From an uncultured Clostridia bacterium (GTDB lineage Bacteria; Bacillota; Clostridia; Christensenellales; UBA1242), in assembly GCA_930990975.1 (NCBI GenBank), contig CAKNRR010000009.1, forward strand, positions 1-49,877: 49,877 nucleotides of DNA, given 5' to 3'. Position numbers and translations under genes: made by a program. Below are positions 288 through 13,817 of the stretch, one piece after another (position 1 is the stretch's first letter; every line of letters starts with the position of its first letter). Under the pieces are notes generated by a model. That model was not told where the DNA came from and searched no databases. It was given only the letters and a program-made list of their open reading frames with translations.

Positions 288-1487
288 TTATATCTCAAAT
301 TCATTTTCATATTGTTCTATCAAATTTTGATATCTTAATTCTTCTAACTTATTATAAAATTCTTGAAATGTCTTTATTATCTCATAATTAACCTTTTGAC
401 TGATATATAAGCACTCTTGAATTTCGTTAAACAATTTTTTCTTTTGCTTTATTTTTTGTGCTTTGAATTTTGCATTTAGTTTTAATCTTTTATCATCTTT
501 TGCTTTTAAATTTTTCGATTGCTCAATAACAACATTTCCAATTCTTCGGTAAAAATCTTGCATATATTTTTTCTCAAAATTAAAAGGTTGTTTAACGCGA
601 TTTCGCTTACAATATGCTTCAAACTTTTCATCTTTCTCTTTTGCTAAATTTATAAAATCTTCCTTTAAAGTTTTTGCTTGATAGTCCTTTGATAAAATGT
701 AATTTGTAATACTATCAATTTTAGGTTTTAGGGATTTCATATTCTCACAGTCATAATATGTGTGTCTATTTTTTGGGAATTCGTTTGCAAGAGATAAAAG
801 TTTATTCTTTAAAATATACCCAACATTTGTTATTAAACTTTCTTTCATTTTGTCGTTTAGTCTTTTTCTTGCAAGTATTTCTCTTGCCTTAAAGTCAGTT
901 GCGGAAAGTTCAATATTTGCTTTTAACTCATTGATTTTATTTAATGATAGCTTCCCATTAGAGTATTGCTTTCCTTTTTTATTTGGTCGTATTCTTTGTG
1001 GACTATTTTCAAAAAAAGAAATGTGAATATGTCTGTTGTCTGTATTCTCGTGAAGTCCTGCAAACCAAGTTATATTGTTGGGATTTAGTCCAACACTTTT
1101 AAAAAAATTTGGTAGTTCACTTTTAATCATATTGTATGCTTGTTCATAACTATCACACCAAGTTTTACCAAACTTTTCTTCAAAACTTATAACCATATCC
1201 CAAATAACTGATTTTGTTTTCCTTAAAGCCTGTCTTATCTCTTTTCTTTCATCACTTGTTAAAAGTCCATTTTTACCAAATACTCCAGCACTTTTATCTT
1301 TGTTATTCATATATGAAAGATAGTCAAATTTTTTCGTGTCATTTATTCCAGTCAAAATGTAATTCATATAATCTTTATTTGTGTTAGATGAATAAAATTG
1401 CCTTTTGTTTTGATATTCTTTACTCCCACCATGAGAGTTGTAATAATGCAAAAATATATTCACATTAGGAACAATTCTATCTGACAT
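288..1487 (-). CDS. MobL-type relaxase (conjugative mobilization nickase)
   Basis: A 399-residue protein expected to nick one strand at oriT and pilot it to the recipient. Seen: a histidine cluster in GLHENTDNRHIHISFFE, with H146, H153 and H155 forming the metal-binding HUH-type triad. The N-terminus is tyrosine-rich (Y15, Y16, Y25, Y32, Y40), and one of these could be the transesterifying tyrosine. The C-terminal half is lysine-rich and helical, with no recognisable helicase or primase domain. Known: this arrangement matches the MobL/MobP relaxases of Firmicutes mobilizable elements. The ATG is preceded by AAAGGAAAC and overlaps the end of the upstream MobC-like gene by 11 nt, implying translational coupling. 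Family placement is from motif recognition, not a search. Confidence 0.82.
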   Translation of the reverse strand: MSDRIVPNVNIFLHYYNSHGGSKEYQNKRQFYSSNTNKDYMNYILTGINDTKKFDYLSYMNNKDKSAGVFGKNGLLTSDERKEIRQALRKTKSVIWDMVISFEEKFGKTWCDSYEQAYNMIKSELPNFFKSVGLNPNNITWFAGLHENTDNRHIHISFFENSPQRIRPNKKGKQYSNGKLSLNKINELKANIELSATDFKAREILARKRLNDKMKESLITNVGYILKNKLLSLANEFPKNRHTYYDCENMKSLKPKIDSITNYILSKDYQAKTLKEDFINLAKEKDEKFEAYCKRNRVKQPFNFEKKYMQDFYRRIGNVVIEQSKNLKAKDDKRLKLNAKFKAQKIKQKKKLFNEIQECLYISQKVNYEIIKTFQEFYNKLEELRYQNLIEQYENEFEI

Positions 1488-1917
1488 TTGTTTCCTTTAT
1501 GCAATTAAGTTCTTCATCTAACAAATCAAATAATCCGTCATTTATATCGTAATCACATTTTTTATTACATTCCAAGTTATAAACGACATAAGCTATATAA
1601 TTTAGCATTTTCTTGATTAAAGCAATATCTATTTTGTATTCGTTTTTGTTTTGTTTAATTTCGCATTTTATGTTTTTAATTTCTTCATTAAGATAATACA
1701 AATTTTGTCTTATCTCATCTAAATTTGCTCTTTGGTCAACTTCATTATCTCCAAGTAATTTTTCAGCACCAGTAACAGTGCAATAACGAATAAAGTCCGA
1801 AAGATTATCAAATCCCTTTTTTGTCCTGTTGTATGCTTTATCTAAAATATCTTTATCTTCTTGATTGTAAATTCGCAGTGTTAATTGTGATTTTAATGTT
1901 TGTTTTATTTTTGGCAT
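1477..1917 (-). CDS. MobC-like ribbon-helix-helix relaxosome accessory protein
   Basis: A 146-residue protein directly upstream of the relaxase gene and overlapping it. The start is set at MPKIKQ because AGGAG sits 8 nt before that ATG; the open frame runs 14 codons further upstream without a ribosome site. Seen: an N-terminal segment with a short strand (SQLTLRIYNQ) followed by helices ending in NLSDFIRYCTVTGAEKLL, the pattern of a ribbon-helix-helix DNA-binding domain. A charged helical region around residues 70-110 could form a coiled coil. Known: MobC-type proteins with this layout bind oriT beside the relaxase. The function is inferred mostly from position and the N-terminal pattern. Confidence 0.6.
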   Translation of the reverse strand: MPKIKQTLKSQLTLRIYNQEDKDILDKAYNRTKKGFDNLSDFIRYCTVTGAEKLLGDNEVDQRANLDEIRQNLYYLNEEIKNIKCEIKQNKNEYKIDIALIKKMLNYIAYVVYNLECNKKCDYDINDGLFDLLDEELNCIKETNVR

Positions 1918-1960
1918 GTTGTTTTCTCCTTTTGTTTTAGTTTTATAAAGGGGCAACAAA

Positions 1961-1990
1961 AAAGAACTATCAAATTTTTAATAGTTCTTT
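1961..1990 (-). terminator. Intrinsic terminator between sigma-like gene and mob genes
   Basis: Perfect 10-bp stem AAAGAACTAT/ATAGTTCTTT with a 10-nt loop, 6 nt after the sigma-like gene's stop. On the minus strand it is followed by TTTTTG. Only about 40 nt then separate it from the MobC-like start, so it may act as an attenuator controlling mob expression. Confidence 0.65.
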
Positions 1991-1996
1991 TGCTCA

Positions 1997-2773
1997 TTAT
2001 GAAATTTTATGTTTTGCTAATTCTTGAAGTATTTCGTAAGTTGGAATATTCAAATATACTTTTTCTTTTTCATTAAACTTCCCACATTGTTTTAGTTGTT
2101 TTAAAAAATCCCACACAGGTTTTGTCATCTTTTCTAATTTTTTTATTGTTGTAATAGGAATTTTTATTCCTTTCTTTTCCGCTATTTTCTTTATTTGAGT
2201 TACATTTTTCATTAAATCCATAACTTGTCCTAAATCAATTGAGATAAAATCTTTACTTGCCGATTTTATAACTTCTTCTATAACATCATCTGCAAAATCT
2301 TTATAATGAGATTGATAAAAATTTGTATTGCTAAATTCAGGGTCAAAAGAAAGCAAAATATGTAAATGTTTTAATGCTGTTGCTTTAAATTGACAAAAAG
2401 CACTAGTGCTCATTTTTAAGTAACTTGCAAGTTCTTTATTTTTATAGCCATATTTATAATAACCTTTTATAATCTTCGCTTGCTTGTCTTCGAGTTCGTC
2501 AACAACTCGCCAAATACATTTTGCAAATTCTTTTTTCTCTAAATTCTTTTCAATATAAGCATTCTCATCTGCAATTATTTCGTGATATGTTAATGCTTCC
2601 TCACCATTATAATCTGTTTGTTCATCCAAAGAAATTGCAATATATTGCCTATCTCTTTTTTGTTGACGTTTTAGTCTTTTATTGTCACTACGCAAAAATA
2701 GAGCAACTTCATCGTTTACTTCCAAATCTATAAATTTATTGTGAATTCTATCGTAATATTTGATTGTTTCCAT
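1997..2773 (-). CDS. Sigma-70 region 4-like regulator of the mobile element
   Basis: 258 residues. Seen: residues 70-150 contain a helix-turn-helix like sigma region 4 (ELEDKQAKIIKGYYKYG, then NKELASYLKMSTSAFCQFK). The N-terminal 60 residues are basic (KRLKRQQKRDRQY), and the C-terminal 100 residues are helical and of unknown role. Known: similar sigma-like proteins with this N-terminal pattern are common in Firmicutes conjugative and mobilizable elements and are thought to control transfer genes. There is no clear region 2, so it is unlikely to be a complete sigma factor. AAGGAAGG precedes the ATG. It lies between the integrase and mob genes on the same strand and ends just before an intrinsic terminator. 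Confidence 0.6.
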   Translation of the reverse strand: METIKYYDRIHNKFIDLEVNDEVALFLRSDNKRLKRQQKRDRQYIAISLDEQTDYNGEEALTYHEIIADENAYIEKNLEKKEFAKCIWRVVDELEDKQAKIIKGYYKYGYKNKELASYLKMSTSAFCQFKATALKHLHILLSFDPEFSNTNFYQSHYKDFADDVIEEVIKSASKDFISIDLGQVMDLMKNVTQIKKIAEKKGIKIPITTIKKLEKMTKPVWDFLKQLKQCGKFNEKEKVYLNIPTYEILQELAKHKIS

Positions 2774-3012
2774 TTTTCCTTCCTTTATTTAACTAGGTAG
2801 AACTTTGTTTTTTGCAATCATCTCATTTACGAAAAAAGCCCAGTTCACCTATATGATACTTCTGGTCGGGTATCGATTTCGGTGCACTAAGGCTCACTCA
2901 GATTTTATCTTTTGTTGGAACGCTAAGGTTCGCTATAAATTTGAAGTTAAACTCTAACTTCTGTTTTTATTATAGAACAAATGTTTGATTATTGCAAGTG
3001 AAATTTAAGAGT
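2774..3012. other. Repeat-bearing non-coding region between integrase and sigma-like gene
   Basis: No gene is visible. It contains two near-identical words, CTAAGGCTCACT (2887-2898) and CTAAGGTTCGCT (2923-2934), 36 nt apart. It also has a perfect 7-bp inverted repeat GAAGTTA/TAACTTC (2943-2961) followed on the plus strand by TGTTTTTA. Candidate roles are integrase arm sites, the promoter region of the sigma-like gene, or a terminator. Confidence 0.4.
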
Positions 3013-3951
3013 TTATATAGCACATAAAAGTTTTCCAAATTTATTCATCATATCTGTTTTGTAAGACATAAGAGAATGCGTGTATCTTTGCAGTGTTATC
3101 ATAGGATTTTTATGTCCTAAAATTTCGGAAACAGTTTTAACATCCATGCCAAATTCAAGAGCACGAGTTGCAAATGTATGACGAAGTGCATGGAAATTTT
3201 TGTATGGGATATCTAACTTATTTAATATCCTTTCAAATGTTCGTTGATAAGACCTTGTTCCAACCATTCCATTGTTTTTTGTTGTTATGACATATTTTGA
3301 TGTGGATTTTTTCTTAATTTTCTTTAAAATATCAACAAGTTGTTTAGGAAGTGGAATAACACGATTAGAATTCTTTGTTTTAGGTGTGTCAACAATAATT
3401 GTAATCTTATCATTTTGCTTGCCTTGAAAAGCGGATTTTGAAATTGTCATATAGTTTCTATTAAAATCAATATCGTCCCAAGTAAGCGCCAAAAGTTCTC
3501 CGATACGCAAACCCGTATATAAACAAATAACAATTCCAATATAGTTTGATTTTTTACAAGACAAACAATATTTTTCTATTTTGTCCTGTTCACTTTTTTC
3601 AAAAGCGCAAACTTTTGTTTCTTCTTGTAAGGGCATTTTAATTTTTTTACAAGAATTTTTATTTGTTATTTCCAAAACATTAGCTTCTTCAATTGCTTGC
3701 TTTAAGATGTTTGTCATAACAATAACTGTGTTGTTTGCCAACTTCTTACCTGTTTTCAAATTTCCTTTCTCTAATTTTTCTAAAACAAATTCTTGAAGAA
3801 CCTGTGGGGTTAATTCTTCAAGTTCAAAATCTCCGAGTTTTGGATTTATGTGTTTTTCTATAAATTGTAAATAAGTGTTATAGGTCCTTATTTTAACCGT
3901 GTGCTTAATATATTTGTTTAGCCAAATATCAAGCCAATCTTTTAATTTCAT
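3013..3951 (-). CDS. Tyrosine site-specific integrase
   Basis: A 312-residue recombinase of the lambda-integrase/Tn916 type that catalyses integration and excision of the element. Seen: an N-terminal SAM-like core-binding domain (about residues 1-100) and a C-terminal catalytic domain. The catalytic set is complete: R149 in YTGLRIGE, lysine near 191-193 in the hairpin, H254 and R257 in HALRHTF, H280 in LGHKNP and the nucleophile Y290 in RYTHS. AGGAGG lies 9 nt before the ATG. It is slightly shorter than Tn916 Int, with no extended arm-binding domain. The gene points left like the mob genes, with a 316-nt repeat-bearing intergenic region upstream. Confidence 0.93.
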   Translation of the reverse strand: MKLKDWLDIWLNKYIKHTVKIRTYNTYLQFIEKHINPKLGDFELEELTPQVLQEFVLEKLEKGNLKTGKKLANNTVIVMTNILKQAIEEANVLEITNKNSCKKIKMPLQEETKVCAFEKSEQDKIEKYCLSCKKSNYIGIVICLYTGLRIGELLALTWDDIDFNRNYMTISKSAFQGKQNDKITIIVDTPKTKNSNRVIPLPKQLVDILKKIKKKSTSKYVITTKNNGMVGTRSYQRTFERILNKLDIPYKNFHALRHTFATRALEFGMDVKTVSEILGHKNPMITLQRYTHSLMSYKTDMMNKFGKLLCAI

Positions 3952-4267: not shown

Positions 4268-5896
4268 ATGTCATCTAATATTTCAAAAGAGAAGAGAGAA
4301 AAACTTATTGCAGAGATAAATGAAATAAAACGTTTTATTGAATCGGCAACCCCTGACACGAACACAAAAAATTTGTTGTCATATGTATCTAATATTGAAA
4401 AAGAATTAAAGACTAAAAAATATGGCTTAGTCTTTGAAGAACATAAAGAAAATATTGATAAAATTCTTGAAACTCATCTTCCATATCTTGAAGAAGAAAA
4501 AAAATTGTTTATAGATAATGGTGGAGAATTGAATTTTTTAATTGAAAGCGATAATTTGGCAAGTCTTCAATTATTAGAAAAAACACATAAAGGCAAAATT
4601 GATTTTATTTATATAGACCCACCTTATAACACTGGTAATAAAGATTTTGTTTATGGAGATTCATTTGTCGATTATGTTGATTGCTATAAACATAGTAAAT
4701 GGTTATCATTTATGAAAAGTAGATTAACTATAGCTAACAAATTGTTAACAAATGATGGAGCTATTTTTATTAGCATTGATGATAACGAACAAGCAAACTT
4801 GAAAATGCTTTGTAATGAAATATTTGATGAAAATAATACAGAACAATATATTTGGTGTTTACAAGATAAATCAGAGGGCTCTTTTGTTAAAACTGCAGGA
4901 TTAACTGTTAGAAAGGAACACGAATATATAATTGCATGTTTTAAAAAATCAAATAAAAGATTTTCAAGATATGTTGGCAAAAGGGAATTTGCAGAAAATT
5001 TAGACAACAATCCAGACAACGACCCAAGGGGACCTTGGTTTTCAGGCAATATATCAAGGAACGGAATAAAAAGTACAACTGGTAGTAAGTATTATACAAT
5101 TACAAATCCCGCGGGAGAAAGTTTCACTAGAAATTGGACATTATCAAAACAAGAGTATGAAGAAGCATTAGCAGATAAAAGAATTTACTTTGCAAAAGGT
5201 GGTGCAGGAGTTCCTCGCCTAAAAGTTTTTGCTAATCAGGAAGCATTACTTATTCAAAGTAGTTTGTTTAGTGATGTCCACACTTCAGTGACTGGTAAAA
5301 ATGAATTAAAACAACTTTTTAATAACGAATCGCCTTTTAATTTTCCGAAGCCAACAGATTTAATAAAAAGACTTCTGCAAATTTCTACTTTTAAAAATGC
5401 TGTAATATTAGATTTCTTCGCTGGTTCAGGAACTACTGGTCATGCGGTTATGAAACTTAATGCAGAAGATGGTGGCAATAGAAAATTTATACTATGCACA
5501 AATAATGAGAACAATATTTGTCGTGATATAACTTATGAAAGAATTAAACGAGTTATAAATAAAGAAAATTATCAAGCAAGTGTAAAATATATGAAAGTCG
5601 GTTATTTGCCAATTGATAATAAATTGTATTATGAATATGCCGATGAATTATTAAAACATATCAAGGAGCTAGTTGAACTAGAAAATGCAATTAACTTTGA
5701 TGACAATCAATCCATTGCTATAATGTTAACAGAAGAAGAATTAGATAAGTTTACCAAGAATATACCAGCTGAATGCAAGTCTATCTATCTTGGACACAAT
5801 GTTTTACCTACACAAGAACAAGAAGATTTATTTAGAACAAATGATATAAAAATAAATATAATACCAGATTATTATTATAAAGAATTGGAGAATTAA
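4268..5896 (+). CDS. mod: Type III restriction-modification DNA methyltransferase (Mod)
   Basis: A 542-residue adenine-N6 methyltransferase of the beta class, which provides both target recognition and protective methylation for a type III system. Seen: motif IV DPPYNTG at 117-123 comes before motif I DFFAGSGTTG at 382-391, the order defining the beta class. The variable central segment (about 190-350) should hold the target-recognition domain. An N-terminal helical region (1-80) is typical of Mod dimerisation. AAGGAG precedes the ATG. The res gene follows after 4 nt, so the two are co-transcribed. No simple-sequence repeat of the kind that drives phase variation was found. The recognition sequence cannot be read from the sequence. 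Confidence 0.93.
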   Translation: MSSNISKEKREKLIAEINEIKRFIESATPDTNTKNLLSYVSNIEKELKTKKYGLVFEEHKENIDKILETHLPYLEEEKKLFIDNGGELNFLIESDNLASLQLLEKTHKGKIDFIYIDPPYNTGNKDFVYGDSFVDYVDCYKHSKWLSFMKSRLTIANKLLTNDGAIFISIDDNEQANLKMLCNEIFDENNTEQYIWCLQDKSEGSFVKTAGLTVRKEHEYIIACFKKSNKRFSRYVGKREFAENLDNNPDNDPRGPWFSGNISRNGIKSTTGSKYYTITNPAGESFTRNWTLSKQEYEEALADKRIYFAKGGAGVPRLKVFANQEALLIQSSLFSDVHTSVTGKNELKQLFNNESPFNFPKPTDLIKRLLQISTFKNAVILDFFAGSGTTGHAVMKLNAEDGGNRKFILCTNNENNICRDITYERIKRVINKENYQASVKYMKVGYLPIDNKLYYEYADELLKHIKELVELENAINFDDNQSIAIMLTEEELDKFTKNIPAECKSIYLGHNVLPTQEQEDLFRTNDIKINIIPDYYYKELEN

Positions 5897-5900
5897 GATT

Positions 5901-8090
5901 ATGAAATTAATGAATTTTCAATTAAATGCTATAAAAGAACTACATGAGAGTGTAGAATCTGGTTTTAAAAATATTGTATTAAAAAGCCCAACTGGTAGTG
6001 GTAAAACTATCATTTTAACACATTTTATGGACGAATATCTTAAAGGTCATCCTAAAACAATATTTGTTTGGCTTACTCCTGGTAAAGGTAGTTTGGAAGA
6101 ACAAAGTAAAGCGAAAATGGATAAATACATTCACAACTCACAAACAAAGCTCTTGCTTGACGTTATGACAAATGGTTTCGCTGAAAATGATTGTTGTTTC
6201 ATAAACTGGGAAAAACTAACAAAAAAAGGAAACAATGCACTAAAAGATAGTGAAAGAACAAACTTTTTGGAGTATATAGAAAAAGCTTTTGACAATGATT
6301 TAGAATTTAAAATTATTATTGATGAAAGTCATCAAAATTTTACAGAAAAATCTGATGCTATTGTCCAATTATTCCACACAAGCAATATTATAAGATGTTC
6401 CGCCACCCCAATTGTAAATAAACAAGATAAACTTATAGAAATTAAAGAAGAAGATGTTATTGCAGAAGGTTTAATAAAAAAGCTTGTTGCTATTAATGAG
6501 AATTTTCCACATGTAATATCAACAAACAATCAAACTCAATATTTATTGGAACAAGCTCTTAATAAGCAAAGAGAATTAAAACAATTATATTTATCTATTG
6601 GTGTTGATATAAATCCTTTAATTATTGTTCAAATGCCAAACAATTCTGATTTATTGCTAGAAACAATAGAAGACTTTTTTGAAAAACAAAATATCAATTA
6701 TGAGAACACTTTAGCATTATGGTTATCAGGTAGACACAAAAACTTAGATAGAATAGAAGAAAATAATGCTCCACAAATTGCTGTTATTATTAAACAAGCA
6801 GTTGCTACAGGTTGGGATTGTCCAAGAGCACACATACTTGTTAAACTTCGTGAAAATATGGACGAAACTTTTGAAATTCAAACGATTGGAAGAATTAGAC
6901 GTATGCCAGAAGCTAAACACTATGAAAACGATGCTTTGGATACATGTTATCTATATACATTTGATAGTAAATTTACCGAAGGAGTTAAAAATTCACTTGG
7001 TAAAGGAGCTTTAGATGTTAAAACAATTTTCCTTAAAAATGAGCACAAACAAATATCTCTAGTAAAAGAACAACGAACAATGATAACTGATTTTAGAAAC
7101 CCTAGAAAAGCACTTTCATCTATTAATCAGTATTTAAAAAATGAATATAATCTAACTGGCAATAAAACAGAAAATAAAACTAGACTTCAAACTGCTGGAT
7201 ACATATTCTCACAAGACATTATTAAACATTCAGTTTCAGGGAATATCGCTACACTGGATAAATTTTCGGAAAAAGACAATTTTAATGATATTCAATTAAC
7301 CGAAGCTATAAACACACACTATCACGGCAGAGATTTCCATAATAGAGTTGGTAGAATTGGCTTAGAAATTGGATTGGAATATAGTTATATGAACACAATC
7401 ATTTCAAAGTTATTTGGTGAAAAATTTGAATATAGAGAAAAATTATTAAACCTTACAACAAGAGAATTATATGCTTTTGTGATAAACAACTTTGATAAGC
7501 TAAGAATTGATGTTAAAAATGCTATGGCAGTTGTTATGTCACAATTAGGTATGGACTTAAAGAACATATCATTAAAAGAATTTAAAATTCCACAATCAAT
7601 GATGTTTACTTATGATAGTCAAAACAAAATACAAACAGAAAGTGAAAGCAATGTTTATCAGGGATATTTAATGTCTGCCGAACCTCGTTCTTCATCAGAG
7701 AAGAAGTTTGAAAAATTTTGTGAAAATTGTAAAGCTGTTGACTGGTTTTATAAAAATGGCGATAAGGGTGAAGAATTTATGTCTATTGTATATTTAGACA
7801 ATGCTGACGGACAAAAACTTTTCTATCCTGATTATATAATATCAGTAAATGGGCAAACTTGGATTGTAGAAACTAAAGGCGGTTTTACTAGAACTGGCGA
7901 AAGTGAAGATATTGATAAATTTTCACCTAAAAAGTTTGAAGTATTACAAGCATATTTAAAAAATCACAACTTACAAGGTGGCTTTGTTCGTTATGACAAA
8001 CAAAGCGAAGAATTGTGTATTTGTATGGACAATTATAGCGATGATATACATAGCGAACATTGGAAAATATTAAGTGATGTTATCAAGTAA
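5901..8090 (+). CDS. res: Type III restriction enzyme helicase-nuclease subunit (Res)
   Basis: 729 residues; the ATP-dependent translocase and nuclease partner of the upstream Mod. Seen: helicase motif I SPTGSGKT (29-36), motif II DESH (141-144), motif III SATP (167-170), a second RecA-like domain with QTIGRIRRMP resembling motif VI, and a C-terminal PD-(D/E)xK nuclease with D644, E657 and K659 (PDYIISVNG, then VETKGG). It is shorter than classical Res subunits of about 900-1000 residues but has all domains, so it is probably a compact variant rather than a truncation. GGAG lies 10 nt before the ATG. A 14-bp terminator follows immediately. Confidence 0.92.
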   Translation: MKLMNFQLNAIKELHESVESGFKNIVLKSPTGSGKTIILTHFMDEYLKGHPKTIFVWLTPGKGSLEEQSKAKMDKYIHNSQTKLLLDVMTNGFAENDCCFINWEKLTKKGNNALKDSERTNFLEYIEKAFDNDLEFKIIIDESHQNFTEKSDAIVQLFHTSNIIRCSATPIVNKQDKLIEIKEEDVIAEGLIKKLVAINENFPHVISTNNQTQYLLEQALNKQRELKQLYLSIGVDINPLIIVQMPNNSDLLLETIEDFFEKQNINYENTLALWLSGRHKNLDRIEENNAPQIAVIIKQAVATGWDCPRAHILVKLRENMDETFEIQTIGRIRRMPEAKHYENDALDTCYLYTFDSKFTEGVKNSLGKGALDVKTIFLKNEHKQISLVKEQRTMITDFRNPRKALSSINQYLKNEYNLTGNKTENKTRLQTAGYIFSQDIIKHSVSGNIATLDKFSEKDNFNDIQLTEAINTHYHGRDFHNRVGRIGLEIGLEYSYMNTIISKLFGEKFEYREKLLNLTTRELYAFVINNFDKLRIDVKNAMAVVMSQLGMDLKNISLKEFKIPQSMMFTYDSQNKIQTESESNVYQGYLMSAEPRSSSEKKFEKFCENCKAVDWFYKNGDKGEEFMSIVYLDNADGQKLFYPDYIISVNGQTWIVETKGGFTRTGESEDIDKFSPKKFEVLQAYLKNHNLQGGFVRYDKQSEELCICMDNYSDDIHSEHWKILSDVIK

Positions 8091-8279: not shown

Positions 8280-8319
8280 AAATACCATCTATTTTATTCC
8301 CTTTTTATAGGTGAGTAAA

Positions 8320-8772
8320 ATGGATAGATCTAGAAATAAAATTGTTGCTTTTGCAGGCCATAGATATGAATGGCAATCAATAGGAGTAGAAGAAAAACTA
8401 TTACAAGTGTTAGAAGATTTAATCAATAGGGGGTATACAATATTTTATGATGGCAATTATGGTGCTTTTGATAATAAGTGTAGAAACGCAGTTTTAAAAC
8501 TTAAAAATAAATATCCACATATAAAACTTGTTTTAATCTTAACATATTATCATCACGACAAAGAAAAATATACAATACCATCATATTACGATGAAACCAT
8601 TTTACCAGAACTAGAAGATTTACACTACAAACAAAAAATTACAAAACGAAACGAGTGGATAATCGACAACTGCGACATCCTTATTTGCCACATCCAAGAA
8701 ACTTACAAAAGCGGTGCTTATAACACTGTCAAATACGCCCAAAAACAAAACAAACCAATAATTTATATCTAA
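8320..8772 (+). CDS. YpsA-like SLOG-family nucleotide-binding protein
   Basis: A 150-residue protein. The start is set at the ATG at 8320 because AGGTGAG lies directly upstream; a GTG nine nt earlier is the alternative but overlaps that ribosome site. Seen: N-terminal IVAFAGHRYEW, resembling the glycine-containing nucleotide loop of YpsA/DUF1273 proteins. An acidic/aromatic segment (YDGNYGAFD) follows, and later CDILICHIQ and SGAYNTVKYAQKQNKPIIYI, the typical last Rossmann strands of the SLOG fold. Known: SLOG domains bind nucleotides or nucleotide-derived ligands and several act in bacterial conflict systems. Here it is a single gene between two defence operons with its own promoter. Its ligand and role are unknown. 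Confidence 0.7.
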   Translation: MDRSRNKIVAFAGHRYEWQSIGVEEKLLQVLEDLINRGYTIFYDGNYGAFDNKCRNAVLKLKNKYPHIKLVLILTYYHHDKEKYTIPSYYDETILPELEDLHYKQKITKRNEWIIDNCDILICHIQETYKSGAYNTVKYAQKQNKPIIYI

Positions 8773-8775
8773 CAA

Positions 8776-8804
8776 AAAAGAAGACTAGTTGCTAATCTTC
8801 TTTT
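8776..8804. terminator. Bidirectional terminator between convergent genes
   Basis: A 9-bp stem AAAAGAAGA/TCTTCTTTT flanked by A- and T-runs lies between the plus-strand SLOG gene and the minus-strand nuclease-like gene, overlapping the latter's last codons. Confidence 0.7.
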
Positions 8805-9442
8805 ATTATTAAATTTTCAACTTTAAATATAAAATGTTTCATTTCAATTATCTTATTATTTAATGAGTATTTTGATATTATTTGTTCATTATCCACAATC
8901 TGCAAATCATTAACTACACATACATCCCTATCAGAAGATTGTAAACAATTTATTGACTTGATACATTTTTGAATATCTATGTTATCATTTTTTATATACA
9001 TTACCATCATTGCCTTATTATTATAGAATGTGTAATAATTATTGCTTTTTGACACAAAACGTTTTATCCCATTTATATAATATTCTTTATTCAATTTTAG
9101 TTTACCATCTATTCTTTTACATTCAATAATATAATAAGCAGACACATTTTCAAATGAAATAGGTGATATAGTAACTTTAACATCAACATGTCCTGTTTTT
9201 GCTGGCAAATAATTTTCTTGAGTTTCCCTATCGAATCTATAGAGTAAAACATTATTTTGTTTTCTGTATGAATCATTCATAAGAGTTGTAGAAATCCATA
9301 TGTCTGTTATTTCATTTTCTATAAAGTTTACATTAGTTTTAACTAAGCTCATATATTTTATGCTTTGTATAATAACATTTTCAATATCTTGATAAACAAG
9401 AGATTGGCACTTTTTGTTTAATTTAGTATTTAAAAATCCCAT
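8792..9442 (-). CDS. PD-(D/E)xK nuclease-like protein paired with the adjacent methyltransferase
   Basis: 216 residues, not a named family I recognise. Seen: HVDVKVTI with D87, followed by a strand ending YYIIECKRIDG with E107 and K109. This is the D...ExK signature of the restriction-endonuclease fold, and an upstream acidic residue near 41-43 could be part of the site. The C-terminal third has a helix and a strand but no motif. It starts 2 nt after the methyltransferase stop with GGAG overlapping that gene's end, so the two are certainly co-translated. Inference: it supplies DNA cleavage for the methyltransferase, whose own N-terminus shows no clear nuclease motif. An accessory or inactive role cannot be excluded. 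Confidence 0.6.
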   Translation of the reverse strand: MGFLNTKLNKKCQSLVYQDIENVIIQSIKYMSLVKTNVNFIENEITDIWISTTLMNDSYRKQNNVLLYRFDRETQENYLPAKTGHVDVKVTISPISFENVSAYYIIECKRIDGKLKLNKEYYINGIKRFVSKSNNYYTFYNNKAMMVMYIKNDNIDIQKCIKSINCLQSSDRDVCVVNDLQIVDNEQIISKYSLNNKIIEMKHFIFKVENLIIKED

Positions 9443-9444
9443 AA

Positions 9445-12258
9445 TTAATCTCCATAATGCGTAATTATTGAAGATATCATTTGTTGTAAATCTATTTCAG
9501 CATTCATTATGTGCCAATTATAATCAAAGCTGCTTTTAATAATATAATAACTATTTTCATCAAAATAATAGATATCATTTTTATTTATTATATTTTTACA
9601 TTTAGTATAAATAATATTTTTCAATATATTAATATCGTTTTGCTTATTTTCATTTTTCTCATCTAATATTATTCTTACAATAGTATATTCATTATCGATC
9701 AAATATTGAGTTTTACATTTAAAATTGTTTTTACTAATTTTATTCCAATAGTCTTCAAAATATTTTATATAAAATTTAATTTTCGATTCTGTTACACGTT
9801 TGTGAATGTATGAATGTGTTGCAAATGGGATAGAAAACTTAAGTGCATAATCTACATAAGGATTTTCATCAAGATGAAATTTTTTCAAAATTAGATTGTC
9901 TAATTTTGTAATTAATTCACCAGAATTGTTTATTAACTTTTCCTTTTCTAACTGTATTTTTTCTACCAACCTACTTATTTCTGAATCTAATATTGCAGGA
10001 AATGTAAGGATTTGTTCAAATATTGATTGTTCCCGTTCTATACCTGCAGAAGAACCCAGCATTAAATTTAAGTATGAATATAATGATGAATTTAATAAAC
10101 CAGTAATACTTAAAAGTAAATCTTTTTGATCGGGATTTGCCTTCAACCCAATTACTGATCTTTTGTAAACAAAATTTTTATTAGAAAATACAGCTTTTAA
10201 TTTAAGTGTTTTAGGGTCAATTCCGACAGTTAGTAATGTGTAAGGAGGATTAAATAATTTCTCATTGCGAGCTCTATGGACATTTGAATAATTAAAAATT
10301 GTTGATTTACTATCATTATAAAAGAAAGGTTTAATACATTCTGCGGTTATTAATTTTCTTCCTATATATTTTCTTGTATCATACAAACCCGGATTTGTTA
10401 ACATACCCGTACCATAGATTACATTATGTTTCTTCAATAAATCACCTAAAGATTCATAGTTTTGAAAAAGATTTTTAATTGTATAGCAATCAAGCATTGT
10501 TCCATAAACGAATGTTTTCCAAGCCCAGTCATTTTCATATAAATAACTTTGTTTAACATTTTTTATATCTTTACTTTCTAAAACAAATATTTTAAATAAT
10601 TTATAATAAATATTTGATTTCATAGAAATAAAAGAAATATTGTTCTGCTGTGTATTATTTGTTGATGACTTATACTTTAAAATTAATGCTGGACCTATTG
10701 CATTTTTAAATATTTCTTTCCTAATGTTAGACAATTCAATTATATTAGAAATTGAACAAAGCTCTAAAAACTTTTTCCTAAAAATTCTTGCCTTATTATC
10801 AAAATTATAAAAAATTTTTGATGGCAAAACAAATATTATATCAGTAGTAAGAGTAGCAAATTCTAGAGCTTTTATCATAAAGGCTCTAGCAATTTCATTG
10901 TTTTGATTTGGAATTTTGACAGCCTTACAGAATTTTAATGCAAGTGCGTCTTTTACATTACCCCAAGGCGGATTACCAATTATATAATCAAATTTCTTTT
11001 TTAGTTTAAGTTTAATATCATCTTCGAAGAAATTTCCAACAATTAAATTTTTATTTTTCAACTTTGGCAATTTAAAATCTTTTAAAGTTTTGGGATCTTT
11101 ATAATCAAGCATAGTTAAGTATAATGAAAAAATTGTTATATCAATAGCTTCTTCATTTTTATCTATCCCGTATATACAATTATTCAGTAGATTAATTAAA
11201 ATGTTGTCATTATTACAAAAATCCTGTTGACCTATATTTTTTTTAATAAGATTTCTATAAAATTTAATTAAAAATATACCAGATCCGCAGGCCGGATCTA
11301 AAATGGAACTATCAATTCTGGATTTAACAAAGAAATTGTTAATATAATCAACAAGAAATAAGGGGGTGTAATATGCTTTATCTTTGTTTTGTTTTTCTTC
11401 TCCTAACAAAACTTCATAAATATTACTTATTAATTCTATAGGAATAATGTCAAAATCATAAAGTGAAAATAAAGCTAATTGTCCATTATACATTAATTCC
11501 TTTCCTTCAAAAAACCTATATAATAGCATTAAATCATCATTTGTTAATGTTTCTAAATTTTTGGTATTTAAATCATCAAACAAATTCCCATTAAATTTTT
11601 TGTTAAGATAGTCAAATAATAAAATTAGCTTGCTTTTATCTTTAATAGTTTCTAAAAAATTATACTTCGTGTTATCTTTTGTAAAATATTTATACCCCAA
11701 ATCAACTTGTCTATCTATTAAGTAAATTGTAAAAAGCAAAGCTAATATTAATTTCGTTGAAAATTCATATTTAAATTTGAATTTATCTGTAATAAATTTA
11801 AGATTATTTAATAAAGAAGAGTATAAATTATTATCACTTAATGTTTTTTGTAGTTCACGCAATGTTTCATATTTTTTTATATTAGAATAGCAATAGAGAG
11901 TTTTATTATTACAATTATTAATATCTATAGAGCTTATAAATTCTAATTTATCATTGTTTAAGTGAGCACCGTTATAAATAAATAATTTATTGTCAATATA
12001 ACAAAAAACAAGAGGTATTTGAGAATTCCATATATTATAAATTTCTTTATTAGTTATATTTTTATTAAAGAAAATAATGAATGGTTTATTAAATTGACAA
12101 AAGATTAAACTAGGGTTAATTTTTTTAATTATTTTTTTATAATAAGTATCAAAATTATTGCTTTCTAAAAAAGAATTCGCTGTATAAACATCATCATTAT
12201 TTTCTACATATCCTAATGAACTTAGCAAAGATATAAAATTTTCTTTAATATTTTCCAT
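9445..12258 (-). CDS. Eco57I-class N6-adenine DNA methyltransferase
   Basis: 937 residues. The start is chosen at MENIKENF because AAGGAG lies 7-8 nt upstream; the frame stays open 30 codons further into the Fic gene without a ribosome site. Seen: YYTP at about 296-299, motif I DPACGSGIF at 321-329 and motif IV NPPWG at 429-433, the order of gamma-class adenine methyltransferases of the Eco57I/type IIG group. An N-terminal domain of about 280 residues includes NIWNSQIPLVFCYIDN, resembling the N-terminal region of type IIG enzymes but with no obvious PD-(D/E)xK residues. The C-terminal half (about 560-937) probably contains target recognition (YGTGMLTNPGLYD, then LGSSAGIEREQ). It is the middle gene of the Fic-methyltransferase-nuclease operon. 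Confidence 0.88.
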   Translation of the reverse strand: MENIKENFISLLSSLGYVENNDDVYTANSFLESNNFDTYYKKIIKKINPSLIFCQFNKPFIIFFNKNITNKEIYNIWNSQIPLVFCYIDNKLFIYNGAHLNNDKLEFISSIDINNCNNKTLYCYSNIKKYETLRELQKTLSDNNLYSSLLNNLKFITDKFKFKYEFSTKLILALLFTIYLIDRQVDLGYKYFTKDNTKYNFLETIKDKSKLILLFDYLNKKFNGNLFDDLNTKNLETLTNDDLMLLYRFFEGKELMYNGQLALFSLYDFDIIPIELISNIYEVLLGEEKQNKDKAYYTPLFLVDYINNFFVKSRIDSSILDPACGSGIFLIKFYRNLIKKNIGQQDFCNNDNILINLLNNCIYGIDKNEEAIDITIFSLYLTMLDYKDPKTLKDFKLPKLKNKNLIVGNFFEDDIKLKLKKKFDYIIGNPPWGNVKDALALKFCKAVKIPNQNNEIARAFMIKALEFATLTTDIIFVLPSKIFYNFDNKARIFRKKFLELCSISNIIELSNIRKEIFKNAIGPALILKYKSSTNNTQQNNISFISMKSNIYYKLFKIFVLESKDIKNVKQSYLYENDWAWKTFVYGTMLDCYTIKNLFQNYESLGDLLKKHNVIYGTGMLTNPGLYDTRKYIGRKLITAECIKPFFYNDSKSTIFNYSNVHRARNEKLFNPPYTLLTVGIDPKTLKLKAVFSNKNFVYKRSVIGLKANPDQKDLLLSITGLLNSSLYSYLNLMLGSSAGIEREQSIFEQILTFPAILDSEISRLVEKIQLEKEKLINNSGELITKLDNLILKKFHLDENPYVDYALKFSIPFATHSYIHKRVTESKIKFYIKYFEDYWNKISKNNFKCKTQYLIDNEYTIVRIILDEKNENKQNDINILKNIIYTKCKNIINKNDIYYFDENSYYIIKSSFDYNWHIMNAEIDLQQMISSIITHYGD

Positions 12259-12269
12259 AAACACTCCTT

Positions 12270-13316
12270 TTAGTTTCTTGTGTAATATGTCGATTTGCGG
12301 TCGCCATGTTTTTTTATTAATCCCTTGTTTAGCAATTCTTTTAAACATCTTTCTATCGTTGTTTCAGATAATGTAGGACACAAAGAAACGATTTCAGATT
12401 TTGTAAACTTACCAATTTTTGTATTGATAATGTCTTGGACTTGAGTTAATGCTTTTGATTTCTTTTCAAGTAATATGTTTGCTCTTTCTTCCAAATCTCT
12501 ATATGCTTTTAATATCACAGATAACATATATTTAATAAATTCGGTTGGATTGTTTTTTCCATCAATCCAGTTTATCGAACTTGATTGTAAAGAATCATAA
12601 TATCTATTTTTGGTCTCTTCAATTATTTTTTCAATAGAAATAAACTTTCCGACACTATATTCCTGTTTATATAAAAGAAGTAAAGTCAAAAGTCTACTCA
12701 TTCGCCCATTTCCATCATTAAAAGGGTGAATACATAAAAAATCCAAAACAAAGATTGGTATTAAAATTAATGGATCAACATATTCTTTGCTAACTGCGAT
12801 ATTAAATTCCTCGCAAAGTCTATCAATAGCATCAGGAGTTTCGTATGGCTCTAAAGGTTGGAATCTTACAAAAGAACTTCCATCAGTTCTTGTTTCTGAA
12901 ATATAGTTTTGAACATTTTTAAACTTTCCTCCAATAGATTTTTCAGAAAATTTGTACAAATCTCGGTGGAGTTGAAGAATATAAGAACTATTAATTGATA
13001 TGAATTCATAATTTTCATGAATTGTATTAAGAACATCACGATATCCAAGGATTTCTTTCTCATCTCTATTTTTTGGCGTTGTTTTGTTTTCACAAATTTG
13101 TTTAATTCTTGTTGATGTTGTTACAATTCCTTCAATCTTATTTGATGATTCTATGCTTTGAATTTTTGCAATTTCTACAAGTTTATTAATTTTAGTTTTG
13201 TTTTTATATTCAATATTCGCTAATTTACCTTTGTATTCATGTATTTGAGATATGTATCCTAAAATTTCATTGTCCCAAGTAACATTTTTGTATTGTGAAT
13301 AATTAAAAATTTTCAT
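12270..13316 (-). CDS. Fic-family protein with C-terminal winged helix
   Basis: 348 residues. Seen: the Fic catalytic motif HPFNDGNGR (H197-R205) is complete. The autoinhibitory motif SSNKIEG with S58 and E62 lies N-terminal, which makes it a class II Fic protein. The last 50 residues (GKFTKSEIVSLCPTLSETTIERCLKELL) look like a winged-helix DNA-binding domain. Known: Fic proteins usually transfer AMP to target proteins and are held inactive by the inhibitory glutamate; Fic-wHTH proteins can also bind DNA. AGGAG precedes the ATG and the methyltransferase follows 11 nt downstream. Two matching inverted repeats at the promoter suggest autoregulation through the winged helix. The AMPylation target is unknown. 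Confidence 0.88.
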   Translation of the reverse strand: MKIFNYSQYKNVTWDNEILGYISQIHEYKGKLANIEYKNKTKINKLVEIAKIQSIESSNKIEGIVTTSTRIKQICENKTTPKNRDEKEILGYRDVLNTIHENYEFISINSSYILQLHRDLYKFSEKSIGGKFKNVQNYISETRTDGSSFVRFQPLEPYETPDAIDRLCEEFNIAVSKEYVDPLILIPIFVLDFLCIHPFNDGNGRMSRLLTLLLLYKQEYSVGKFISIEKIIEETKNRYYDSLQSSSINWIDGKNNPTEFIKYMLSVILKAYRDLEERANILLEKKSKALTQVQDIINTKIGKFTKSEIVSLCPTLSETTIERCLKELLNKGLIKKHGDRKSTYYTRN

Positions 13317-13336
13317 TTAATCTCCTATCTGCTCTT

Positions 13337-13423
13337 TTATTGCATCATTTTAGCATGTTTAATGCAATAAGTCAACTATTTGTGACATTTTATTGCATCA
13401 TTTTATAATTTATGGTGCAATAA
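13337..13423. repeat. Twin 34-bp inverted-repeat operators of the Fic operon
   Basis: IR1 has arms TTATTGCAT (13337-13345) and ATGCAATAA (13362-13370). IR2 has arms TTATTGCA (13390-13397) and TGCAATAA (13416-13423). Both span 34 bp. They share an identical 18-bp left half (TTTTATTGCATCATTTTA at 13335 and 13388), 53 bp apart, or about five helical turns. IR1 covers the -10 box and spacer of the promoter. Confidence 0.8.
13347..13375 (-). promoter_or_regulatory. Promoter of the Fic-methyltransferase-nuclease operon
   Basis: On the minus strand TTGACT (13370-13375), a 17-nt spacer and TAAAAT (13347-13352), placing the transcript start about 20-25 nt before the Fic ATG. The promoter is embedded in the IR1 operator. 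Confidence 0.75.
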
Positions 13424-13448: not shown

Positions 13449-13817
13449 TTATTTCTTTTCAGCTTTCCATTTTAAAAATTCTTCAAGATCTTCATCAGTC
13501 ATCTTTCTTTTTATTTTTGCAAGTTCTTGCTTTCGCTTTTTCTTTTCGGCTTGTTCCTTGAAAAAATCATCAGCATATATTGTCCCAAGTTTAGTGATAT
13601 CTAATCCATTTCCAATTGCTTTAAATAATTCGTCAGCTAAAATTTTTGCAAAATTATTCATCATTTCATCATATCCCTTTTGCAATTCAGGGGTCCAATC
13701 TTGGTAGATAGGTTCACTTGTTGTACCTTCAGGTATAATCCTGCCTTTTTTGTCTCTTTGAAAATAACACTTAATACCAACTTGAATTTGTTTTTTCTTT
13801 TGTCCTATATTTTCCAT
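13449..13817 (-). CDS. Small charged protein of the mobile element, unknown function
   Basis: 122 residues that I do not recognise. Seen: a short N-terminal part that may be strand-forming (QIQVGIKCYFQRDKKGRII), then a helical middle (ELQKGYDEMMNNFAKILADELFKAI) and a strongly charged C-terminal helix (EKKKRKQELAKIKRKMTDED). There is no signal peptide or membrane segment. GGAGG lies 6-7 nt before the ATG. It is the last gene before the tRNA-fragment boundary and is read in the same direction as the Fic operon, upstream of it, but about 130 nt and the Fic promoter separate them. It could be an element accessory or DNA-binding protein; there is no motif evidence. Confidence 0.6.
   Translation of the reverse strand: MENIGQKKKQIQVGIKCYFQRDKKGRIIPEGTTSEPIYQDWTPELQKGYDEMMNNFAKILADELFKAIGNGLDITKLGTIYADDFFKEQAEKKKRKQELAKIKRKMTDEDLEEFLKWKAEKK

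Follow-up and report, generated by a model that had tools for sequence, protein, structure and literature searches.

A Fic protein as the putative controller of a two-gene restriction-modification pair in an uncultured Clostridia bacterium

Introduction

How restriction systems come to be activated without danger in a newly entered host has long been asked, and answers so far exist for the C proteins of type II restriction-modification (R-M) systems and for a few others. C proteins are small Xre-type helix-turn-helix (HTH) regulators. Here we analyze a 49,877-nucleotide stretch of DNA from an uncultured, AT-rich Clostridia bacterium (the window; contig CAKNRR010000009.1 of assembly GCA_930990975.1), in which a gene encoding a Fic protein (fic) directly precedes genes encoding a DNA methyltransferase (methylase) and a small PD-(D/E)xK-type protein (nuclease). 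The arrangement resembles type II systems under C-protein control in having a predicted DNA-binding leader protein, a candidate operator at the leader's own promoter, and methylase and nuclease genes downstream. It differs in that the leader is a 348-residue Fic enzyme with a predicted C-terminal winged helix, which makes it an analogue of the C proteins and not a member of their family. With moderate confidence we read the locus as a two-component R-M system, in which a restriction pair would be controlled by a Fic autorepressor.

The closest described proteins are Fic proteins that carry an HTH domain (statements on papers cited by PMC number refer to the available portions of their text). 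CccR of Yersinia pseudotuberculosis (PDB 7XUX) is a Fic-HTH dimer reported to repress its own promoter at AGATAATCAT-N26-ATGATAATCT near the -35 and -10 elements (PMC9755527). The window Fic resembles CccR in its inhibitory motif, its predicted C-terminal HTH and an inverted-repeat candidate operator near -35 and -10, autorepression itself being reported for CccR (PMC9755527). The arms are spaced by 18 bp rather than the 26 bp of CccR, and CccR, unlike the window Fic, is a secreted effector whose gene lies upstream of a type VI secretion system locus (PMC9755527). CbFic2 (PDB 8CIL) likewise combines Fic and HTH domains and forms a dimer; its DNA binding, tested on random DNA, is reported to be coupled to dimerisation and to (de)AMPylation (PMC10628234). 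No link to restriction appears in the available text on either protein (PMC9755527, PMC10628234). Sofic, a Fic protein with a defence role, is reported to be toxic and anti-phage and to abort infection, with a small antitoxin, AS1, encoded downstream (PMC12249575). Defence operons with regulator genes include those of CapK/CapS, a kinase plus a separate repressor (PMC13373217), and BrxR, a WYL protein (PMC9122589), whereas the window Fic would unite an enzyme and a DNA-binding domain in one protein. In the literature covered (titles and the starts of abstracts, most subscription papers lying outside this scope) we found neither a Fic protein as leader of a restriction operon nor a split pair of the kind described below.

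Results

The methylase and a separate small protein form a conserved gene pair

The three genes lie on the minus strand, with gaps of 11 nt between fic and methylase and 2 nt between methylase and nuclease. The methylase start was placed at the ATG at 12258, which is preceded by AAAGGAG and gives 937 residues; the start of the 967-residue open reading frame (ORF) would overlap fic. The initial annotation, made from the letters of the window, had described three tightly packed genes encoding a class II Fic protein with an intact HPFNDGNGR motif and a DNA-binding winged helix, a 937-residue methyltransferase with no clear nuclease motif at its N terminus, and a 216-residue protein with D87...E107-x-K109 that is separate rather than fused. 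It had called the latter two R-M-like. The ORF coordinates, domain matches and alignments given below agree with this description, the winged helix and the R-M-like character keeping the status of predictions.

The methylase matches Pfam N6_Mtase (5e-23) and Eco57I (1.5e-19) and has DPACGSG at residue 321 and NPPW at 429. PADLOC assigns it to its type IIG model REase_MTase_IIG (PDLC03603; 1e-103), residues 40-798 of the 967-residue ORF aligning to 6-805 of the 1016 model positions. Like enzymes of the type IIG Eco57I class it has an N-terminal extension, and its length and the position of the region concerned suggest a target-recognition region. It differs from that class in that the putative nuclease is a separate 216-residue chain and in that its N terminus lacks conserved catalytic residues. 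In an alignment of 24 copies none of the D, E or K positions within the first 150 residues reaches 70% conservation, although W77 is kept in 23 (the remaining copy, L199, lacks that region), and an active nuclease in the methylase N terminus was rejected on this ground. Methylase and nuclease are encoded by separate ORFs in all 24 copies, rather than by the one chain that defines type IIG.

All 24 aligned copies of the small protein share E42, D87, E107-x-K109 and H203 without exception (E107-C-K109 in the window), and these residues include the D...(D/E)xK motif of the PD-(D/E)xK superfamily; E42 and H203 were not part of the initial annotation. The window protein had no Pfam, PADLOC or NCBIfam match at E<=1, and scans of 13 family members gave weak matches to PDDEXK_9 in two (best 0.009), to PADLOC 'Effector' in two and to GajA in one (0.0017). 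None of the libraries searched offers a clear model for this stand-alone family, which is why its methylase is classed as a type IIG enzyme of one chain. A search of the PDB with the nuclease profile found no relative (the only match was GnsA at 0.47), and 14 of the 15 plasmid records examined that carry the gene annotate the product as a 'hypothetical protein', the other as 'Fis family'. Structure prediction, the check suggested at the outset for a PD-(D/E)xK fold, gave a mixed answer: the model of the homologue from locus L004 has the motif on a helix-strand-strand-strand-helix-strand order, but the fold was not firmly modelled and Foldseek with both models returned nothing at E<0.001. The PADLOC assignment and the uncertain fold would suit a methylase that alone is a type IIG enzyme, with the small protein an accessory DNA-processing factor or methylase partner. 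Since conserved catalytic D, E or K are missing from the methylase N terminus, whereas the small protein keeps E-D-ExK in every copy, we regard this as improbable. A comparison of divergence between the target-recognition region and the nuclease pointed clearly in neither direction. That methylase and separate nuclease constitute a restriction pair is likely; the pair would restrict by cleavage.

Linked methylase and nuclease genes, as in type II R-M systems, are present here and in relatives. On a Clostridiaceae contig (L004) a methylase with 39% identity in its best segment is followed directly by a 222-residue protein with the same E-D-ECKR pattern, and no Fic motif was found in the 1.1 kb available upstream of the methylase. 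On Alphaproteobacterial plasmids a gene annotated as 'N-6 DNA methylase' or 'SAM-dependent methyltransferase' precedes one for a 214-253-residue protein, mostly 'hypothetical'. Of the 20 plasmid methylase matches 16 were examined (H11, H12, H13 and H17 were left out), and the nuclease gene follows directly in 15, the exception (L007) being a truncated methylase; 12 of these nuclease genes were identified by profile and three (L008-L010) separately, being themselves rows of the nuclease profile. Among 398 genomes of the phylum the methylase and nuclease profiles matched the same five, with no orphan nuclease. Three of the five genomes had themselves supplied rows to the nuclease profile, and in G408 the gene seems to be divided between two contig ends, so that the informative part of this result is the lack of any orphan nuclease.

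Other searches added little. Plasmid searches with nucleases, where they gave matches (two and three records), returned only records already found through the methylase. There were no matches for the window nuclease in phages or plasmids, for the L004 nuclease in plasmids, or for the methylase in phages. Of the scans of viral contigs with the nuclease or with single methylases, three gave nothing, one a known contig, one three contigs already in the set and one a single new contig. No nuclease was found in the available sequence at L018 and L006 (cut by contig ends), at L020 (590 bases downstream) or at the broken second methylase of genome G485 (L016/L097), and the methylase was absent from the seven same-genus genomes searched (E<=1e-20).

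The initial annotation had proposed all three genes as one candidate defence module, to be checked by co-occurrence across genomes. The methylase and nuclease do co-occur, but Fic lies directly ahead of the methylase in only one of 28 methylase loci, the window itself, and one gene away in one other (L198). The trio was therefore rejected as a conserved module: the methylase-nuclease pair is conserved and Fic stands outside that conserved unit. In L095 the pair lies between a BrxC gene (three Pfam BrxC domains) and a gene for a 1194-residue Eco57I-class protein that is apparently PglX-like, and hence apparently inside a BREX operon; in another BREX locus brxU is reported between brxC and pglX (PMC8565348).

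Different kinds of leader seem able to occupy the slot ahead of the pair. Clear Pfam HTH proteins fill it in L007 (HTH_3, 2 nt upstream of the methylase) and L093 (HTH_17), whereas in L192 and L193 the leaders are proteins of 61-70 residues with ribbon-helix-helix matches below cut-off, and the L008 leader has a ribbon-helix-helix or HTH match also below cut-off. In L009, L019, L198 and L201 a leader of about 154-160 residues overlaps the methylase start; scans gave MerR at 0.22 for L009 and no match for L198. The latter locus, on a Mameliella alba plasmid (1040-6670), encodes consecutively a distant Fic (24% identity over core and C terminus), a 158-residue regulator, the methylase and the nuclease. 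Several loci, such as L004 and L094, have no recognised regulator directly ahead of the pair. By eye, the leaders of L190, L194, L196 and L010 resemble the small proteins of L192 and L193.

Palindromes at the predicted fic promoter

Two 34-bp palindromes, which the initial annotation had not included, lie upstream of fic (Table 1). Both contain the pattern TTATTGCA-N18-TGCAATAA. One is placed over the predicted fic promoter, with one arm right after the -35 and the other right after the -10, and straddles the -10 as an inverted repeat of the CccR type. The promoter call rests on position and palindrome, as such sites are no commoner in the region than in its shuffled versions. Across the 1.41-Mb assembly, which is 97% complete, TATTGCA-N16-20-TGCAATA has two matches, both at the fic promoter, and the reversed-pattern control has none.

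Relatives having both the Fic core and the winged HTH (wHTH-Fic) were found in 62 of 391 genomes of the class (E<=1e-25). We surveyed 61 of the 70 places outside the window, in 60 regions (the nine left out were mostly fragments), which together with the window gave 61 loci and 63 Fic ORFs. For upstream regions these were reduced to 54 by dropping six with an uncertain start or short upstream DNA and three near-copies. Exact 7-bp palindromes with a span of 27-36 occur in 34 of the 54 regions, window included (100 shuffles: mean 4.8, maximum 11), and arms of at least 6 bp flank the -10 on both sides in 36 of the 53 regions with a promoter-like site (200 arm shuffles: mean 11.4, maximum 21). Fics linked to type I genes fit this -10 geometry poorly, only two of the eight tested having a palindrome that spans the -10, in both cases with arms of 6 bp. 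Judged by eye, their palindrome often lies upstream of the -35. Half-site sequences vary between Fic groups, and a partial Mantel test of covariation between recognition helix and operator half-site gave no signal beyond relatedness (297 of 2000 permutations).

Among the roles that had been suggested for Fic, that of transcriptional controller is favoured by the palindromes and the CccR analogy, with less weight on a toxin-like guard. Fic is probably an autorepressing controller of the operon, and would act by binding these candidate operators as a dimer.

Fic retains its catalytic and inhibitory motifs

The fic product (Pfam Fic, 1.6e-16) contains HPFNDGNGR, which includes H197 and corresponds to the HxFx(D/E)GNGR catalytic motif of class II Fic (Fido) proteins. 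N-terminal to the Fic core, from residue 58, SNKIEG fits the inhibitory motif (S/T)xxxE(G/N) as defined in PMC9755527. The putative winged helix gave weak Pfam matches below the cut-offs (DIP2311-like_C 0.006, Penicillinase_R 0.011), yet full-length relatives align through to the protein end. In phmmer searches of solved proteins the matches were 8uqu (1e-73, residues 22-341), 8cil (CbFic2; 3e-07, residues 5-247, over the Fic part) and 7xux (CccR; 2e-05, residues 143-328). The window Fic is predicted to AMPylate and to bind DNA.

wHTH-Fic genes head other restriction systems

Fic heads restriction genes in 12 of the 61 loci, namely nine type I systems, one GmrSD, one McrBC and the window pair. 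In eight of the type I loci HsdM either overlaps the Fic stop or begins only a few bases from it, and in L162 it lies one gene further; it was identified by Pfam in L151, L152 and L162 and elsewhere by profile match and N-terminal sequence. HsdS is present in six of these loci and HsdR in five, L151 and L156 being cut by contig ends. In L172 a GmrSD enzyme is encoded 122 nt downstream of Fic, and in L181 an AAA ATPase gene 26 nt downstream is followed by one for a McrBC-family protein. Counting the window, the Fic regions contain nine methylase-profile matches, each of them immediately behind Fic except in L162, where one gene intervenes. L163, where an HsdM-like start is fused to a GmrSD_C-like stretch, was left out of the restriction-linked count.

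Mapped on a tree built from 58 full-length Fics, the restriction label requires five changes, of which supported branches force four; no shuffle out of 500 was as low. Each change could be either a gain or a loss. The four kinds of restriction system fall on four separate parts of the tree, and in one clade nine of ten members, which come from nine families, are accompanied by type I genes throughout.

Might fic be a solo gene that by chance lies ahead of an unrelated pair and supplies merely a promoter? The single occurrence directly ahead among 28 methylase loci would fit, as would the G+C content of fic (27.3%), which is above that of methylase (22.6%) and nuclease (22.9%), and the 32 of 63 Fic ORFs that have no same-strand ORF of at least 120 residues starting within 150 nt downstream, some of them owing to contig ends. 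Against chance stand the recurrence of Fic ahead of four kinds of restriction system and the consistent placement of methylase-profile matches after it; moreover, a Fic with such an operator would control the operon even so. We consider a bystander quite unlikely.

As side observations, a clade of wHTH-Fic genes (L152, L155, L160, L161, L164, L166 and others) stands at the head of type I operons in several families, and the GmrSD and McrBC genes behind wHTH-Fic are type IV restriction genes.

PrrC is an anticodon nuclease found beside a type I system, and Fic could in principle be a guard toxin of the PrrC or Sofic kind, an AMPylator silent while the restriction pair works and released once a phage blocks it. 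All 12 restriction-linked Fics keep both the catalytic and the inhibitory motif (HPFxDGNGR and S-N-x-I-E-G), which a pure repressor would not need, and the clade that stays with type I genes points the same way. So do the reported toxicity and anti-phage action of Sofic (PMC12249575) and the match of the window Fic to the PADLOC SoFic model (5e-43). Against the NCBIfam SoFic equivalog (NF046030) the window Fic scores 61.9 bits where the curated cut-off is 550. The other 46 full-length Fics, which lack restriction genes, mostly keep the motifs too (catalytic in 44, inhibitory in 43), so that what the motifs indicate is an enzymatic role kept across these Fics generally, with no specific argument for a guard. 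Operators of the autorepressor type would also account for the leader position without one. A guard toxin seems unlikely to us, but such a role is compatible with part of the reading in which Fic controls a restriction pair.

Proposed mechanism

Gene order, the conserved pair, its conserved motifs, the palindromes and the recurring Fic-led restriction genes suggest the following model of a restriction pair under a Fic autorepressor. The methylase would recognise and methylate a DNA site by means of a target-recognition region of its own. Unmethylated DNA would be cut by the small PD-(D/E)xK protein, which probably serves as a cleavage subunit and is either paired with the methylase or guided by it (a 'split type IIG'). 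A Fic dimer on both TTATTGCA-N18-TGCAATAA operators would hold down transcription of the whole operon in a role like that of a C protein. When the element enters a new cell there would be no repressor, giving a burst of Fic, then methylase, then nuclease, damped later. The AMPylation centre, intact though autoinhibited, probably links this switch to a signal from the cell or from a phage, or would be a second-line toxin.

A broader proposal is that wHTH-Fic AMPylators are a general class of single-protein enzyme-plus-repressor switches that head the four kinds of restriction system (type I, McrBC, GmrSD and the pair). Operator binding would be coupled to AMPylation state, infection or loss of operator binding would both de-repress restriction and arm the AMPylator, and the pair would be an unnamed split type IIG whose nuclease takes its site from the methylase. 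We put this forward as a tentative and rather doubtful extension. If true, a post-translational modifier with its own DNA-binding domain, placed before four unrelated kinds of restriction system, would join AMPylation to immune gene control. The operators make the Fic-controller reading directly testable.

Surroundings of the locus

The module adjoins a type III R-M pair (Table 1), and an ECF-sigma-like protein is encoded together with the MobL relaxase and the tyrosine integrase on the minus strand (291-3951). The MobL and integrase genes and both R-M systems probably form one integrative mobilisable element, the ends of which were not found. A search of eight relatives for two flanking genes defined no empty site, as one of the two is an integrase and the other is scattered.

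Table 1 Coordinates of features within the window
Feature	Position	Strand	Description
fic	12270..13316	-	Class II Fic protein of 348 aa with a winged helix at the C terminus; predicted to AMPylate and to autorepress the operon
methylase	9445..12258	-	937-aa N6-adenine-type DNA methyltransferase, Eco57I class
nuclease	8792..9442	-	216-aa stand-alone PD-(D/E)xK-type protein
Predicted sigma-70 promoter	13347..13375	-	TTGACT-17-TAAAAT, extended -10 TG; 10/12 matches
Candidate operator 1	13337..13370	no strand	TTATTGCAT-N16-ATGCAATAA; 34-bp palindrome over predicted fic promoter
Candidate operator 2	13390..13423	no strand	TTATTGCA-N18-TGCAATAA; 34-bp palindrome, 53 bp upstream of operator 1
Near-consensus promoter-like site	13382-13409	+	GTGACA-16-TATAAT; between both operators, points away from fic
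MobL relaxase	291-1487	-	
Tyrosine integrase	3016-3951	-	
Type III R-M pair	4268-8090	+	Mod 542 aa and Res 729 aa
SLOG-like protein	8311-8772	+	153 aa; YpsA family 8.7e-06, just under cut-off
122-aa gene	13449-13817	-	Just upstream of fic promoter; weak AbiEi match (3e-04)

The promoter-like site between the operators has no obvious gene on the plus strand, and the gene for the SLOG-like protein converges on nuclease, ending 19 nt from its stop. The same genome holds a second Fic gene (G000:C1:178359-178712; L002), in a 423-residue frame.
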